DNA from: Nocardia ninae NBRC 108245
GTDB taxonomy: Bacteria; Actinomycetota; Actinomycetes; Mycobacteriales; Mycobacteriaceae
Assembly: GCF_007990755.1 (NCBI RefSeq)
Contig: NZ_BJXA01000059.1
Location: 1-56,721, forward strand
Direction of reading: 5' to 3'
DNA length: 56,721 nucleotides
The notes under the pieces were generated by a model. That model ran no database searches. It was not told the DNA's origin and saw nothing but the letters and a program-made list of their open reading frames with translations. Positions 8,663 to 33,189 of the stretch are shown piece by piece (within the stretch, counting starts at the first letter, position 1; every line of letters begins with the position of its first letter). The position numbers and the translations under genes are program-made.

Positions 8663-9724
8663 CTAGTTCTCCCGCTCGCCCATCCGCCAGTCGTTGAACC
8701 GCTTGCCGATCTTGGACACCGTCTCGCCGACCTCCTGGCCCACCGTCCCGACCGCGGCACCGACATCGCGGCCGAGGTTGCGCACAGTGCGGATCAGCGG
8801 GTCCTCGGACTGGTCGAAATTGGTGCGGTAGGTGCGGGCGGCGCCCTTGATCTCCTCGGTGAGGCTGGTGTTCTTGTCCTGATCGCGCCGGGGATAGTCG
8901 CCGGCGAGCATGCGGTCGTATTCACCGCTCTGGATCCACCGGCGCAACTCGGCGGCGCGCAGCACGGAGAACGGGTGGCTCTGCAACTCCAGGTTGAGCA
9001 GTTTCAGCACGCCGTCGCGCAGATCGCCGGACCGCTCGTAATCGTCGGCCTGCGCGAGGAATGCACCGTGGTTCATCTCCTTGATCCAGGTGCCGCCGGC
9101 CGTCTTCATGTGTACCCGCACCGAGGCGTCGACATCCTGTCCGCACAGCAGCCCGGCCCGGTCGCCGGACAGCTCGGACTTGCGGCTCCATTCCATCAGC
9201 GCGGCCACGATCGCGCGTAAAGCCCAGCCGCCCACCGGCATCCAGCCGATGCTCGCGGAGATGCGCAGCAAATGCATGAGCATGGTGCGGTACACCGCGT
9301 GCCCGGACAGGGCGTGACCCAGCTCGTGGCCGACGATGAAACGCAACTCCTCGGTATCCATCAGGTCGATGAGACCGGTGGTCAGCACGATGAACGGCTG
9401 GTCCATGCCGATGGTGAAGGCATTCACCTGCGGGCTCTGCAGCACGAACATCTCCGGCGTGGTGCGGGCATCGAGCACGGCGACGCAGTCCTCGCGCAAT
9501 TGATGCAGCGAACGGAACTGTCGTTCGTCGACCCGAACCGCCGTCGCCAGGTACAGCAGGCGGTGCTGGCGTTCTTGCAGCAAACCGGACAATGTACGCA
9601 GCACAGTGTCGAAACCGGACAGCGTGCGCAGCGCGACCAAGGCGGTCCGGTCGGCCGGGTGCTCCCACGCGCGAGTGCTGATGCCGGGAAACCTCGTGCG
9701 TATGCGATCCGGGCTGGTAGTCAT
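8663..9724 (-). CDS. M48-family zinc metalloprotease
   Basis: A 353-residue protein with the zinc motif HELGH at residues 133-137, preceded by a typical M48 core (NAFTIGMDQPFIVLTTGLIDLMD, about 101-123) and followed by a hydrophobic segment (about 150-180) and the third-ligand region around EWSRKSELSGDRAGLL. The C-terminal 55 residues (RTVRNLGRDVGAAVGTVGQEVGETV) are amphipathic and of unknown role. No N-terminal signal, so the catalytic domain is probably cytoplasmic or membrane-associated. Members are HtpX-like membrane quality-control proteases. It diverges from the sulfate transport operon and shares a 360-bp upstream region with it. Confidence 0.85.
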   Translation of the reverse strand: MTTSPDRIRTRFPGISTRAWEHPADRTALVALRTLSGFDTVLRTLSGLLQERQHRLLYLATAVRVDERQFRSLHQLREDCVAVLDARTTPEMFVLQSPQVNAFTIGMDQPFIVLTTGLIDLMDTEELRFIVGHELGHALSGHAVYRTMLMHLLRISASIGWMPVGGWALRAIVAALMEWSRKSELSGDRAGLLCGQDVDASVRVHMKTAGGTWIKEMNHGAFLAQADDYERSGDLRDGVLKLLNLELQSHPFSVLRAAELRRWIQSGEYDRMLAGDYPRRDQDKNTSLTEEIKGAARTYRTNFDQSEDPLIRTVRNLGRDVGAAVGTVGQEVGETVSKIGKRFNDWRMGEREN

Positions 9725-9783: not shown

Positions 9784-9789
9784 TACAGT
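9784..9789 (+). promoter_or_regulatory. -10 element for a leaderless transcript
   Basis: TACAGT lies 6 nt before the GTG at 9796, the spacing expected when transcription starts on or next to the start codon. No convincing -35 hexamer is visible. Confidence 0.5.
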
Positions 9790-9795
9790 CTGCCC

Positions 9796-9885
9796 GTGTC
9801 TTCGAATGCCGTCCCGCAGGTCCGCCATGAACTGGCGTTGATCGCGGTCGGCAACCTCGCGGTCGCCGACATTCTCTGTCGCTGA
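9796..9885 (+). CDS. Leaderless upstream ORF of the sulfate-transport operon (29 codons, Cys near stop)
   Basis: GTG TCT TCG opens a 29-codon frame ending ADILCR and TGA, with the only Cys codon two codons before the stop. It directly follows a -10 box and has no room for a Shine-Dalgarno, so it is probably leaderless. In mycobacteria, leaderless short ORFs with Cys codons act as cysteine-responsive attenuators of sulfur operons. The position (204 bp before subI, just before stem-loops with a T-run) fits that role. Function here is inference. Confidence 0.55.
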   Translation: MSSNAVPQVRHELALIAVGNLAVADILCR

Positions 9886-9898
9886 TCGGCGACCGGGC

Positions 9899-9950
9899 AC
9901 GTCTGCACGTCCCTCCCTCGTAGACTGGCGTGCAACTTTTTCGCAGACGT
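9899..9950 (+). promoter_or_regulatory. Attenuator-like overlapping stem-loops in the subI leader
   Basis: ACGTCTGC (9899-9906) pairs perfectly with GCAGACGT (9943-9950). TGCACG (9904-9909) pairs with CGTGCA (9929-9934), which is followed by AC and five Ts (9937-9941). The two left arms share three bases, so the structures compete. The inner one resembles an intrinsic terminator and the outer one would mask it. This is 14 nt after the stop of the upstream ORF. Confidence 0.5.
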
Positions 9951-10088
9951 CCCCGAACCCCGGCGGCCTACCCGGCCGACAGTCGCGCCACAGCCGCATC
10001 GAAGCGGCGGCAGGTCTACCGATCCATCGCAGTCTTCGCTGCCGCTCGAGATTCCCGAGCAGGCGGTCCGTAGGAAAGGTCCACCCCG

Positions 10089-11135
10089 ATGTCTCGCAAA
10101 TTCTGGCTCACTCCGCGCCGACGTAGCGCCGTCGCCGCAGTCACCGCATTCGCGGCGGTCGCCCTCACCGCGTGCGGCGGCGGAGCCAGCGACACGGTCG
10201 GCGGTGGCGGCGCGGACGGCAGCGGCGGCACGCTGAATCTCTACGCCTACGCGGTCCCCAAGCCCGGCTTCGACAAGGTCGCCGCCGAGTTCAACAAGAC
10301 CGAAAAGGGCAAGAACGTCATCGTCAACGGCTCCTACGGCGCGTCGGGCGACCAATCCCGCAAGGTCAAGGACGGCGCCGAGGCCGACCTGGTGAACTTC
10401 TCGGTCGAGCCCGACATCACCCGACTGGTCGACGCCGGTTTGGTCGACACGAACTGGAATGCCGACGCCACCAAGGGAATTCCGTTCGGCTCGGTCGTCG
10501 CGATCGTGGTCCGCAAGGGCAACCCGAAGGGCATCAAGGACTGGGACGACCTGCTGAAGCCGGGCATCGAGGTGGTCACCCCGAACCCGTTCAGCTCCGG
10601 CTCGGCCAAGTGGAACCTGCTCGCCCCCTACGCGGCCAAGTCCGAGGGCGGCAAGAACCCCCAGGCGGGTCTGGACTACCTGAGCCAGCTGGTGTCCAAG
10701 GATCACGTGAAGGTGCAGCCGAAGTCGGGTCGCGAGGCCACCGAGACCTTCCTGCAGGGCACCGGCGACGTGCTGCTCAGCTACGAGAACGAGGCACTGT
10801 TCTCCGAGCGCAACGGCGACCAGATCGAGCACTTCGTGCCGCCGGTCACCTTCAAGATCGAGAACCCGGTCGCGGTGCTGAAGTCGAGCAAGAACCAGGA
10901 GAAGGCGCTCGCCTTCCGCGACTTCCTCTACACCGCCGAGGGTCAGAAGGCTTGGGCGCAAGCGGGTTTCCGCCCGGTCGACCCGAAGGTGGCGGCCGAT
11001 TTCAGCACCGATTTCCCGACCCCGCAGCAGTTGTGGACCATCGCCGACCTGGGCGGCTGGAAGGCCGTGGACAAGGAGCTGTTCACGCCGAACACCGGCT
11101 CCGTCGCGGTGATCTACGACAAGGCGACCAAGTAA
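10089..11135 (+). CDS. subI: Sulfate ABC transporter substrate-binding lipoprotein
   Basis: A 348-residue lipoprotein: signal peptide with Arg-rich start, then lipobox LTAC with Cys29, then a Gly/Ser linker. The mature part is a type-2 periplasmic sulfate-binding fold (NLYAYAVPKPGFDKVAAEF, VNGSYGASGDQSRKV, DLVNFSVEPDITRLV, NPFSSGSAKWNLLAPYA, VLLSYENEA), matching SubI/Sbp/CysP proteins. AGGAAAGG precedes the ATG. It is the first structural gene of subI-cysT-cysW-cysA, with 31 bp to cysT. It captures sulfate (or thiosulfate) outside the membrane. Control is probably by the leader ORF and stem-loops upstream. Confidence 0.93.
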   Translation: MSRKFWLTPRRRSAVAAVTAFAAVALTACGGGASDTVGGGGADGSGGTLNLYAYAVPKPGFDKVAAEFNKTEKGKNVIVNGSYGASGDQSRKVKDGAEADLVNFSVEPDITRLVDAGLVDTNWNADATKGIPFGSVVAIVVRKGNPKGIKDWDDLLKPGIEVVTPNPFSSGSAKWNLLAPYAAKSEGGKNPQAGLDYLSQLVSKDHVKVQPKSGREATETFLQGTGDVLLSYENEALFSERNGDQIEHFVPPVTFKIENPVAVLKSSKNQEKALAFRDFLYTAEGQKAWAQAGFRPVDPKVAADFSTDFPTPQQLWTIADLGGWKAVDKELFTPNTGSVAVIYDKATK

Positions 11136-11166: not shown

Positions 11167-12051
11167 GTGACTGACACCAGCACCGCCGGGATCGGCACGA
11201 AGCCCGCTCCCGGCGGTACCCCGAACACCGGCCGGTGGAATTGGTCCTGGCTGCGCGTGACCGGCTCGGTGGGCCCGCTCGGCATCGCCACCGCGGTGCT
11301 CTGGCTCAGCATCATCGTGCTGCTGCCACTGGCCGCACTGACCGTCACCTCCTTCGAGGACGGCTGGTCCGGCTTCTGGGACGCGGTCACCGCGCCCGCC
11401 GCGCTGGACTCGCTGCGCATCACCGTGCTCGTCTCGGTGGTGGTCGCGGTGATCAACGTGGTGATGGGCACGCTCATCGCCTGGGTGCTCGTCCGCGACG
11501 ACTTCCCGGGCAAGGGCATCGTCAACGGGCTGATCGATCTGCCGTTCGCCTTGCCGACGATCGTGGCCAGCATCGTGCTGCTGTCCCTGTACGGTCCGCA
11601 GAGCCCGATCGATATCCACCTCAACGCAACTCAGCCCGGGCTGGTCGTGGCGCTGGCGTTCGTCACGTTGCCGTTCGTGGTTCGCTCGGTGCAGCCGGTG
11701 CTCATCGAGGCCGACCGCGAGGTGGAGCAGGCCGCGCTCTCGCTCGGCGCGGACAACTGGACCACCTTCCGCCGCATCGTATTACCCACCTTGGCTCCCG
11801 CGGTCATCTCCGGCGGCGGGCTCGCCTTCGCCCGTGCCATCGGCGAATACGGCTCGGTGGTGCTGATCGGCGGGGCGATCCCGCGCGAGACAGAAATGGC
11901 CTCGCAGTACATCCAGAAGCAGATCGAGATCGATCGCCCGATCAACGCGGCCGCGGTTTCGGTTGCGCTGCTGGCGATTTCGTTCGTGTCGCTGCTCGTG
12001 CTGCGCTTGCTCGCCGAGCGCAGTGTGCGGAAAGAGCAGGAGACGCGATGA
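11167..12051 (+). CDS. cysT: Sulfate ABC transporter permease CysT
   Basis: A 294-residue inner-membrane permease with a GTG start and about six membrane segments. The EAA-loop signature is visible (EQAALSLGADNWTTFRRIVLPTLAPAV, about residues 190-215), which contacts the CysA ATPase. A 30-residue Gly/Pro-rich N-terminus precedes the first helix. It overlaps cysW by ATGA (12048-12051), implying coupled translation. It forms the channel with CysW. Confidence 0.93.
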   Translation: MTDTSTAGIGTKPAPGGTPNTGRWNWSWLRVTGSVGPLGIATAVLWLSIIVLLPLAALTVTSFEDGWSGFWDAVTAPAALDSLRITVLVSVVVAVINVVMGTLIAWVLVRDDFPGKGIVNGLIDLPFALPTIVASIVLLSLYGPQSPIDIHLNATQPGLVVALAFVTLPFVVRSVQPVLIEADREVEQAALSLGADNWTTFRRIVLPTLAPAVISGGGLAFARAIGEYGSVVLIGGAIPRETEMASQYIQKQIEIDRPINAAAVSVALLAISFVSLLVLRLLAERSVRKEQETR

Positions 12052-12854
12052 ATCTGTCTTGGCCCACCCGGATTTCGCTGCGCGTCGTCGCGCTGGGCTA
12101 CCTGTTCGTGCTGCTGGTGCTGCCGCTTATCATCATTCTGCTGCGCACTTTCGAAAAGGGCATCGGCGCGTTCATCGACTCGATCACGACGCCGGCGGCC
12201 ATCTCGGCGTTCCAGCTGTCGATGATCATCGTGGCGATCGTGGTCCCGTTGAACGTCATTTTCGGCATCTTCACCGCGCTCGCACTGGTGCGCGGAAAGT
12301 TCCCGGGGCGCACTCTGGTTCAGGGCATCGTCGACCTGCCGTTCGCGGTCTCGCCGGTGGTCGTTGGTGTCGCGTTGATCCTGCTGTGGGGTGCCAACGG
12401 CTGGTTCGGCGGGCTCGAGAGCGTCGGCTTCAAGGTGATCTTCGGCCTGCCCGGCATGGTGATCGCCACCATCTTCGTCACGTTGCCGTTCGTGGTGCGT
12501 GAGGTCGAGCCGGTGCTGCACGAGATCGGTGACGAACAGGAACAAGCGGCCACTACCCTCGGCGCCACCCGGTGGCAGACGTTCTGGCGAATCACGCTGC
12601 CCGCCATCCGCTGGGGCCTCACCTACGGCGTGGTGCTCACCGTGGCCCGCGCCCTCGGTGAATTCGGCGCGGTGATCATGGTGTCGTCCGCGCAGCCCGG
12701 CAAGTCGCAGACGCTGACGCTGCTGGTGCACGGCCGATACATCAACGACCACAACACCTTCGGCGCCTACTCCGCCGCGACCCTGCTGATGGGCCTTGCC
12801 CTCGTGACACTCCTGTTGATGACCCTCCTCGAACGCAAGCGGGGCACTAAATGA
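12048..12854 (+). CDS. cysW: Sulfate ABC transporter permease CysW
   Basis: A 268-residue permease starting at the ATG that overlaps the cysT stop; the frame is open further upstream inside cysT, but that part is a shadow. It has six hydrophobic segments and an EAA loop ([26 protein letters not shown], about residues 165-190). It ends with ATGA overlapping cysA. It pairs with CysT in the importer. Confidence 0.93.
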
Positions 12855-13846
12855 TCACCGTGACCAATGCGAAGAAGAACTACGGTTCGTTCGCCGCGCT
12901 CGACGACGTCACCATCGATATCCCCTCCGGCGAGCTGACCGCCCTGCTCGGGCCCTCCGGTTCCGGCAAATCGACGCTGCTGCGCTCGATCGCCGGACTG
13001 GAATCGCTCGACTCCGGCATCGTGCTGATCGCGGGCAACAACGTGACCAGGGTGCCGCCGCAGAAACGCGACATCGGTTTCGTCTTCCAGCATTACGCCG
13101 CGTTCAAGCACATGACCGTCCGCGACAATGTGGCGTTCGGTCTGAAGATCCGCAAGCGGCCCAAGGCCGAAATCGCCAAGCGGGTAGACGAATTGCTCGG
13201 CATCGTCGGCCTCGACGGCTTCCAGCACCGGTACCCGGCGCAGCTGTCCGGCGGTCAGCGTCAGCGGATGGCGCTTGCGCGCGCGCTCGCTGTCGACCCG
13301 CAGGTGCTGCTGCTCGACGAGCCGTTCGGCGCGCTGGACGCCAAAGTTCGTGCTGATCTGCGTACTTGGCTGCGCAGGCTGCACGAGGAGGTCCACGTGA
13401 CCACCGTGCTGGTCACCCACGATCAGGAGGAGGCCCTGGACGTGGCCGATCGGATCGCGGTGATGAACAAGGGGCGCATCGAGCAGATCGGCACGCCGGA
13501 GGATGTATACGACCGGCCTGCCAATGAATTCGTGATGTCCTTCCTCGGTGCGGTCGCGCGGCTCAACGGACATCTGGTGCGGCCGCACGATATTCGGGTC
13601 GGGCGGGAGCCGAGTATGTCGCTGGCCGAGCACGAGGGGACTGCCGAATCCGCAGGTGTTACCAGGGCGACCGTTGAACGGGTCGTGCATCTGGGCTTCG
13701 AGGTCCGGGTCGAACTGCGCAATGCGGCGACCGGTGATCTGTTCGCAGCGCAGGTGACGCGTGGTGACGCAGAGGCGTTGCGGTTGGCCGACGGCGAGAC
13801 GGTTTACGCACGGGCGACGCGGATTCCGGAGTTGCCTGCGCACTGA
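12851..13846 (+). CDS. cysA: Sulfate ABC transporter ATPase CysA
   Basis: A 331-residue ATPase: Walker A GPSGSGKS (34-41), Q-loop FVFQHYAAF, signature LSGGQ (132-136), Walker [12 protein letters not shown] (about 153-163), switch [14 protein letters not shown]. Residues from about 235 form a TOBE-like C-terminal regulatory domain. Start overlaps the cysW stop (ATGA). Last gene of the transport operon; it supplies energy for sulfate import. Confidence 0.94.
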
Positions 13847-33096: not shown

Positions 33097-33189
33097 CTAC
33101 CGAGGGGAATCGGGCAGACAGCTGGCGCTACAGACGCGCTTGTAGTCGACGTGGCGACGTGCCACAAGTCGTACTCCCGATGCGCGCAT
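33097..33189 (-). CDS. Leaderless cysteine-containing leader peptide of the sulfate reduction operon
   Basis: A 30-codon ORF, ATG at 33187-33189 and TAG at 33097-33099. The peptide is MRASGVRLVARRHVDYKRV followed by CSASCLPDSPR. The RRHVD core followed by Cys codons is the hallmark of the putative leader peptides found upstream of sulfur assimilation genes in actinobacteria. The -10 box CACAAT (33197-33202) is 7 nt upstream, so the mRNA probably starts at or next to the ATG. Ribosome stalling at the Cys codons when cysteine is scarce would raise expression of sir-cysH-cysD-cysN-chelatase. Family knowledge plus position; mechanism here inferred. Confidence 0.75.
   Translation of the reverse strand: MRASGVRLVARRHVDYKRVCSASCLPDSPR

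Follow-up and report, generated by a model that had tools for sequence, protein, structure and literature searches.

A leader ORF of the Ms4533A family with a single conserved Cys codon upstream of the sulfate-import operon of Nocardia

Known cysteine leaders and the subI locus of Nocardia ninae

In the cysteine attenuators of mycobacteria, the ribosome-binding site of the downstream gene is masked by an RNA structure, which a stalled ribosome opens. Polycysteine leaderless short ORFs of mycobacteria are said to have been described by Canestrari and co-workers in 2020, in volume 114 of Mol Microbiol, from page 93. In the accessible portions of the literature, the general scheme of cysteine attenuation is laid out in PMC13236596, and attenuation by cysteine through ribosome speed is described for M. 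smegmatis leaders in PMC9031893 and PMC13236596. The available text of Shell et al. (2015; PMC4633059) reports conserved cysteine-rich leaderless uORFs of mycobacteria, for which attenuation was proposed, and in that of PMC9094748 six regulatory, Cys-rich sORFs of M. tuberculosis are taken to be conserved from M. smegmatis. Candidate cys leader peptides in Mycobacterium, P. acnes and B. longum are presented in the accessible part of PMC1262725, where Rho was proposed because no terminators were found. A search of a limited literature collection for the names Ms4533A, Ms4527A, Ms5788A and NF042937 found no papers.

The window analysed here, a stretch of 56,721 nucleotides, is a contig of the 9.7-Mb genome of N. 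ninae NBRC 108245. On its plus strand, an ORF of 29 codons (VSSNAVPQVRHELALIAVGNLAVADILCR, followed by a stop) extends over positions 9796-9885, from a GTG start codon at 9796 to a TGA stop codon at 9883-9885. A -10-like box of the TANNNT type, TACAGT, is found at 9784-9789 and is separated from the GTG by a spacer of 6 bases. The ORF contains a single Cys codon, TGT at 9877-9879 (codon 28), which is the presumed stall site, and the peptide ends in ADILCR. The first-pass annotation of this DNA had already described the GTG, the 29 codons, the box 6 nt before them, the ADILCR end and the lone Cys codon shortly before the stop, and all of them can be read directly in the sequence. In a profile search the leader, whose residues 1-29 align on profile positions 1-30, matched NF042937, the "Ms4533A family Cys-rich leader peptide", with 54.4 bits (E 1e-14, cut-off 31). 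Judged by this match, the leader is a member of a family that has already been named. No Pfam family was found for the leader, and an Rfam search of the whole window gave no family at gathering scores.

The gap between the leader and subI is 203 nt long. The genes that follow on the plus strand are subI, for a sulfate-binding lipoprotein (10089-11135; TIGR00971, 171.9 bits, cut-off 155.5), cysT, for a sulfate permease (11167-12051; TIGR02139, 262.2 bits, cut-off 246.1), a cysW-like permease gene named by its position and by reading of its translation (12048-12854, inside the open frame 11235-12854), and cysA, for the sulfate ABC ATPase (12851-13846; TIGR00968, 408.7 bits, cut-off 342.75). A divergent gene for an M48 metallopeptidase lies upstream of the leader (8663-9724, minus strand). 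A Shine-Dalgarno-like sequence, AGGAAAGG, can be read ahead of subI at 10072-10079, and a pattern search found a GAAAGG, GGAAGG or GAAGGG core ahead of the start codon in 131/131 loci of the genus. When leaders were collected by a pattern scan, a SubI-like gene was next on the same strand in 118 of 123 cases, among the matches listed, and for the 5 remaining leaders only 131-344 nt of downstream sequence were covered. Together with the NF042937 score above cut-off, this gene order bears out the proposal that the ORF is the cysteine-type leader of an operon for sulfate import.

A second Cys leader (MRASGVRLVARRHVDYKRVCSASCLPDSPR) is present in the window at 33097-33189 on the minus strand, and matches NF042936, the Ms4527A family, with 46.9 bits (cut-off 45). 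The genes behind it are a sulfite/nitrite reductase-like gene, which scores below the cut-offs of its models, and cysH, cysD and cysN. Two gene groups for sulfate assimilation in the window, that of subI and that of the reductase with cysH, cysD and cysN, thus carry such leaders. The TANNNT box of the second leader ends just 2 nt before its ATG, and its true start may differ. Elsewhere, a short ORF (MNFFATVVHLVARLHVDLGRLAAQLCC; L368, G000:C1:343469-343525, minus strand) matches NF042934 with 24.1 bits, under the cut-off of 27, and lies about 40 nt before a frame that reads by eye like a dicarboxylate/cation symporter; it is possibly a third cysteine leader. A further NF042934 match (L367, G000:C17:12744-12800, plus strand) scores 25.9 bits, just under the same cut-off.

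Conservation of the start, the Cys codon and the peptide

SubI is present in 147 of the 148 genomes of the genus, and the leader profile matches 131 of the 148. Leaders were placed in the corresponding 131 loci by position as well as by sequence, with scores of at least 84 as compared to at most 32 for the other 17. One of these 17 genomes lacks SubI too. In 15 SubI-bearing genomes no leader was found in the upstream sequence read, which in one case covers only 78 nt. Inspection of these 15 regions by eye showed that 13 leave no room for a leader, as a small same-strand gene ends within about 100 nt upstream of subI; L167 has a longer gap before subI, yet no similar leader was found in it. By eye, leader loss accompanies a different gene order in L167, L169-L172 and L174-L182. 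At the level of the family, a scan of 301 genomes gave a profile match in 165 (151 above cut-off), distributed over 20 of 31 genera, and no match was obtained in 14 control genomes.

For the comparison between genera, 88 loci from 14 other genera yielded 91 leaders in 86 loci at a score threshold of 50, so that 222 leaders from 15 genera were compared in total. These outside leaders were located by the peptide profile, which favours conserved ones. Profile matches in genera g11, g12, g17 and g19 were left out of this set, and the 222 do not include L233 and L242, a diverged pair from genus g29 with scores below 50. A third set was obtained from species genomes by the pattern scan, which allowed either TGT or TGC at the Cys codon and gave at least 123 leaders in at least 119 loci; its composition is shaped by the pattern itself and by relatedness. 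Of the 25 loci of this set with a SubI nearest to that of the window, the 17 with listed names all belong to Nocardia. Two leaders about 1.5-1.8 kb apart were seen in the Rhodococcus/Prescottella-type loci L185, L227, L257, L266, L297 and L316, and in the last four of these a SubI-like gene lies behind each of the two.

The start is arranged in the same way throughout. The start codon of the 131 leaders of the genus is GTG in 130 and ATG in 1, and all of them have a TANNNT box ending 6 nt (111 leaders) or 7 nt (20 leaders) upstream. The same architecture was observed in 91/91 leaders of the other genera, and in the pattern-found set a TANNNT box stands 6-7 nt before ATG or GTG in 122 of 123, among the matches listed. 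The box and its spacing to the GTG point to a leaderless start, as the first-pass annotation had suggested, and the leader is apparently translated from the 5' end of its mRNA.

Codon 28 is TGT in 131/131 leaders of the genus and in 222/222 over the 15 genera. The pattern scan gave the same result, with TGT in 123/123 among the matches listed. The conservation of the frame and of the Cys codon in relatives, which had been named earlier as the check on this reading, was therefore found. There is one tail Cys in each of the 131 leaders of the genus, separated from the stop by one codon in 117, two in 12 and three in 2. An extra, non-contiguous Cys at codon 20 is present in 57 of them (TGC in 44, TGT in 13). 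Leaders of other genera have 1-4 Cys codons at their end, and in 9 of the 14 genera some or all leaders have a single one. The background is different: among the 122 loci of the genus (out of 131) where the lipobox Cys of SubI was found, 112 encode it by TGC and 10 by TGT. Beyond codon 28, the pattern-found leaders use TGT for Cys in 68 cases and TGC in 9, among the matches listed, so that TGT is generally preferred in the tail, and at codon 28 it is exceptionless within the leaders examined.

Conservation is not restricted to the Cys codon. The 91 leaders from other genera share a motif close to RHxLALIAVGxLxVADIxC, and 12 positions (10, 11, 13-19 and 23-25) are kept in 213-222 of the 222 leaders, L15 and D25 being invariant. 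Within the genus, the pN/pS ratio over all 8515 pairs, kinship ignored, is 0.031 at the 12 positions, as compared to 0.72 at positions 20, 22 and 27 and 0.32 at codons 2-9. Between genera (4000 random pairs, kinship again ignored) the corresponding values are 0.052, 0.95 and 0.75, respectively. Since 12 residues are nearly invariant while their codons vary, the aligned sequences indicate that the peptide itself is under selection. RNA structure also contributes to the constraint, as the wobble positions of CGC10, GCG14 and TTG15 are nearly fixed.

This pattern raises the possibility of an arrest peptide, in which the nascent RHELALIAVGxLxVADIxC would itself be needed for the stall or for sensing, as in TnaC, with the Cys codon being insufficient by itself. 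The 12 positions are kept while synonymous change is free, the whole 27-residue chain would be in the exit tunnel at the stall, and the tail Cys is single throughout the genus and in part of the others. Residues at a fixed distance from the stall site are indeed under peptide constraint, with the exception of L233 and L242. By eye, these two leaders have a TANNNT box 7 nt before an ATG and end in ADLHCC with TGT TGT kept, but have lost the ALIAVG part. Moreover, the non-genus leaders were found by peptide profile, which biases them to conserved ones, the fixed wobble positions speak for a contribution of RNA structure, and a pure peptide effect would leave the choice of TGT over either Cys codon unexplained. 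We regard an arrest peptide in this strict sense as possible, if rather unlikely.

RNA structures behind the leader and the proposed readout

Two small hairpins were found within the ORF. In the consensus fold of the genus, CGCCA-TGAAC-TGGCG pairs within codons 10-14 (9823-9837); its five pairs (CGCCA-TGAAY-TGGCG) are kept in 130-131 of the 131 leaders and hardly vary, so that they do not prove a structure. The same applies to a four-pair hairpin GAYR...TGTC around the Cys codon, which is paired in 53/53 aligned leaders and never changes on both sides. The third base of TGT is held in an A-U pair, which may partly explain why the codon is constant. A stem around the Cys and stop codons (9861-9893, -12.7 kcal/mol) and a pairing between ORF codons 6-11 and the 5' arm of the stem described below were rejected, as 438/2000 and 489/2000 shuffles, respectively, were as good.

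Behind the ORF, 9894-9906 pair with 9943-9955 to form a long stem, here called P (9894-9955). With its inner stem, P folds at -24.3 kcal/mol, and 0/200 shuffles were as good. Covariation was analysed in an alignment of 53 of the 131 leaders, with less than 86% mutual identity. P has 12 pairs in this alignment, ten of them with changes on both sides, and 82.9% of the cells are paired. The covariation score of P plus the small hairpin is 0.306, as compared to 0.190 (sd 0.011) in shuffled alignments, none of which (0/500) was as high, and to at most 0.104 when the arms were slid. When only pairs with changes in both arms are counted, these 53 leaders do not exceed the shuffles (10 vs. a mean of 8.0; 47/500 as high). 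When the arms were exchanged among all 131 leaders, cognate arms gave -18.48 kcal/mol vs. -14.25 (sd 0.26) for exchanged ones, and 0/2000 shuffles were as good.

A second hairpin, T, pairs 9904-9911 with 9927-9934 (9904-9934) and folds at -12.0 kcal/mol, with 4/200 shuffles as good. A run of five T, read directly at 9937-9941, lies between T and the 3' arm of P, and at least 4 T within 8 nt follow the GGCGYGC motif in 95 of the 131 leaders. The GGCGCGC motif can also pair with a GCGCC segment downstream, but the effect is small (-13.29 vs. -12.93; 0/2000 shuffles as good). The stem-loops after the ORF, one of them with the five-T run, are thus present as first described. Their description as mutually exclusive holds in that both use 9904-9906, but not in full, as the fold of P keeps five of the eight outer pairs of T.

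The structures of other genera were also folded. In 31 Rhodococcus/Prescottella leaders, whose alignment is poor, the consensus fold gave no shared stem (-1.8 kcal/mol). In 16 Mycobacterium leaders (L247 plus 15), an uncontrolled consensus fold pairs the Cys codons and the stop with bases a few tens of nucleotides downstream. The layout of this Mycobacterium stem differs from that of P in the genus.

On this basis we propose a model that we consider, as a whole, fairly probable: an Ms4533A-type cysteine leader of the subI operon that is read out through a state linked to P. As the box and its spacing suggest, transcription would start at or beside the GTG, and the leader would be translated from a leaderless mRNA. 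That the leader senses cysteine is suggested by analogy with its family; when Cys-tRNA is short, the ribosome would wait with the TGT of codon 28, which is two codons ahead of the stop, in the A site. What is conserved is compatible with a stall close to the stop codon. If the footprint of the ribosome is assumed to extend from 14 nt upstream to 15 nt downstream of the first P-site base, P would begin just ahead of the leading edge of the waiting ribosome and could form, and a ribosome on the stop codon would clash with the base of P; the first counted base of P is found at a median of 19 nt (14-21) after the first base of Cys28. P, or the state that it marks, would then allow expression across the 203-nt gap to subI, so that low cysteine would raise sulfate import. 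The ribosome is probably held in part by the conserved peptide inside its exit tunnel. Candidates for the output step are the control of Rho termination and the control of subI translation.

In the folding model, the mean probability of P is 0.59 with the ribosome at Cys28, 0.37 with the ribosome at the stop codon, an effect that follows partly from the assumed footprint, and 0.47 with no ribosome. When differences above 0.1 between Cys28 and stop are considered, the probability of P is higher at Cys28 in 68 and lower in 4 of the 131 leaders. The modelled direction of change is the one expected if P marks starvation. The mean exposure of the Shine-Dalgarno sequence is predicted to change little, being 0.423 with the ribosome at Cys28, 0.392 at the stop and 0.418 on free RNA; differences above 0.05 between Cys28 and stop were found in 36/131 leaders with greater exposure at Cys28 and in 11/131 with less. 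No robust switch that sequesters the Shine-Dalgarno sequence of subI was found in the folding models, and no coevolution with the T-tract was found over the 131 leaders; the pairing of CUUUUUC with GGAAAGG was rejected, as 890/2000 shuffles were as good. These results speak against the model, as do the single tail Cys codon of all 131 leaders beside the contiguous ones of the published leaders, the missing shared stem in Rhodococcus/Prescottella and the 15 SubI-bearing genomes in which no leader was found.

One of the two candidate outputs may also be formulated as an explanation of its own, namely Rho-dependent attenuation, in which Rho would load onto the C-rich gap behind the leader and the position of the leader ribosome would determine how far this site is exposed. 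The 75 nt after the leader stop contain 30 C and 19 G, and the accessible part of PMC1262725 proposes Rho for mycobacterial cys leaders. The prediction is called rather weak in that same text, and we hold this explanation to be rather doubtful.

In the P-linked model, stem P is not an antiterminator. The first-pass annotation had described the stems as mutually exclusive parts of a candidate attenuator, and in the classical form of attenuation T with its five-T run would be an intrinsic terminator and P the antiterminator formed by a stall at Cys28. The stability of T and the T-rich stretch behind it agree with this, and the arms of T show weak coevolution, their pairing with the cognate arm being slightly stronger than with the corresponding arms of relatives (-9.40 vs. 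-9.08; 3/2000 shuffles as low). However, the own partner is better than the median partner in only 61/131 leaders, part of T persists in the fold of P, and terminator scans, in which loops were limited to 3-8 nt so that T would be missed, found none. The T-run is enclosed by P, whose 3' arm (9943-9955) is downstream of the run and would still be unmade when termination is decided; therefore, P cannot be the antiterminator of T. We consider classical attenuation improbable. The earlier interpretation is thus supported for the cysteine-type leader and the sulfate-import operon, and a terminator/antiterminator switch is not supported.

A passive leader, with subI mRNA arising mostly from an internal promoter with the -10 box TAGACT at 9921-9926, appears quite improbable: a TANNNT box occupies this place in 94/131 leaders of the genus (89 TAGACT plus five others) and TAGACT also occurs, by eye, upstream of subI in the leader-free genomes L167 and L170, but the box is missing in 37/131, its inner GAC is kept in 123-125 of 131, as would rather be expected of an RNA feature, no -35 match was found for the box, and a passive leader would not stay under such selection. 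The TAGACT sits in the loop of P.

Comparison with described systems

The leader shares with the other members of NF042937 the match over the whole profile length, the presence of subI downstream and a GTG at the expected start of the mRNA. The founding leader Ms4533A of M. smegmatis presumably also precedes subI, as we take from its gene number. The name of the family calls its members Cys-rich, and the leader of the window differs in that it has one Cys codon in its tail instead of a run. The second leader of the window, which belongs to the NF042936 (Ms4527A) family, precedes sulfate-reduction genes and has a different peptide (RRHVDYKRVCSASC).

The same difference separates the window leader from the polycysteine leaderless ORFs of mycobacteria. 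A short, apparently leaderless ORF, a Cys codon next to the stop and a sulfur operon behind it are common to both. In the polycysteine ORFs the Cys codons are contiguous, whereas neither the window leader nor any of the 131/131 leaders of the genus has such a run, and the computations showed no sequestration of the subI ribosome-binding site. The uORFs in the available text of Shell et al. (PMC4633059) are likewise leaderless small ORFs before genes of cysteine metabolism, with clusters of Cys codons, unlike the window leader; subI is absent from that portion of the text. As far as the accessible part of PMC1262725 goes, its leaders are also short ORFs with Cys codons near the stop and no clear terminators, but the operons behind them are cys or cbs operons and their Cys codons come in runs, which is not the case for the window leader.

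TnaC of E. coli, as presented in the available part of PMC10941005, has in common with the window leader that it is short and that conserved residues are found along the peptide. Its signal is free Trp and its targets are the transport and catabolism of Trp, whereas the arrest at the window leader is hypothetical. A more general reading would make the Ms4533A family a nascent-chain cysteine sensor, consisting, in the greater part of its range, of RHxLALIAVGxLxVADIxC and a single TGT at a fixed distance, whose readout RNA would have been replaced between genera. In such a reading the readout RNA would be the covarying stem P in Nocardia and the stem of the Cys codons in Mycobacterium, where the peptide looks looser and the Cys codons are more numerous. 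This reading is tentative and seems to us doubtful; we lowered our confidence in it somewhat because in L233 and L242 a large part of the motif is lost although the TGT is retained.

A family called cysteine-rich thus contains a genus that keeps one TGT and a peptide that would fill the exit tunnel. A single invariant TGT combined with strong selection on the peptide was less expected, and for this reason the nascent chain is worth testing. Should the peptide be needed for the stall, the Ms4533A family would represent a widespread amino-acid-responsive arrest peptide in Actinobacteria.
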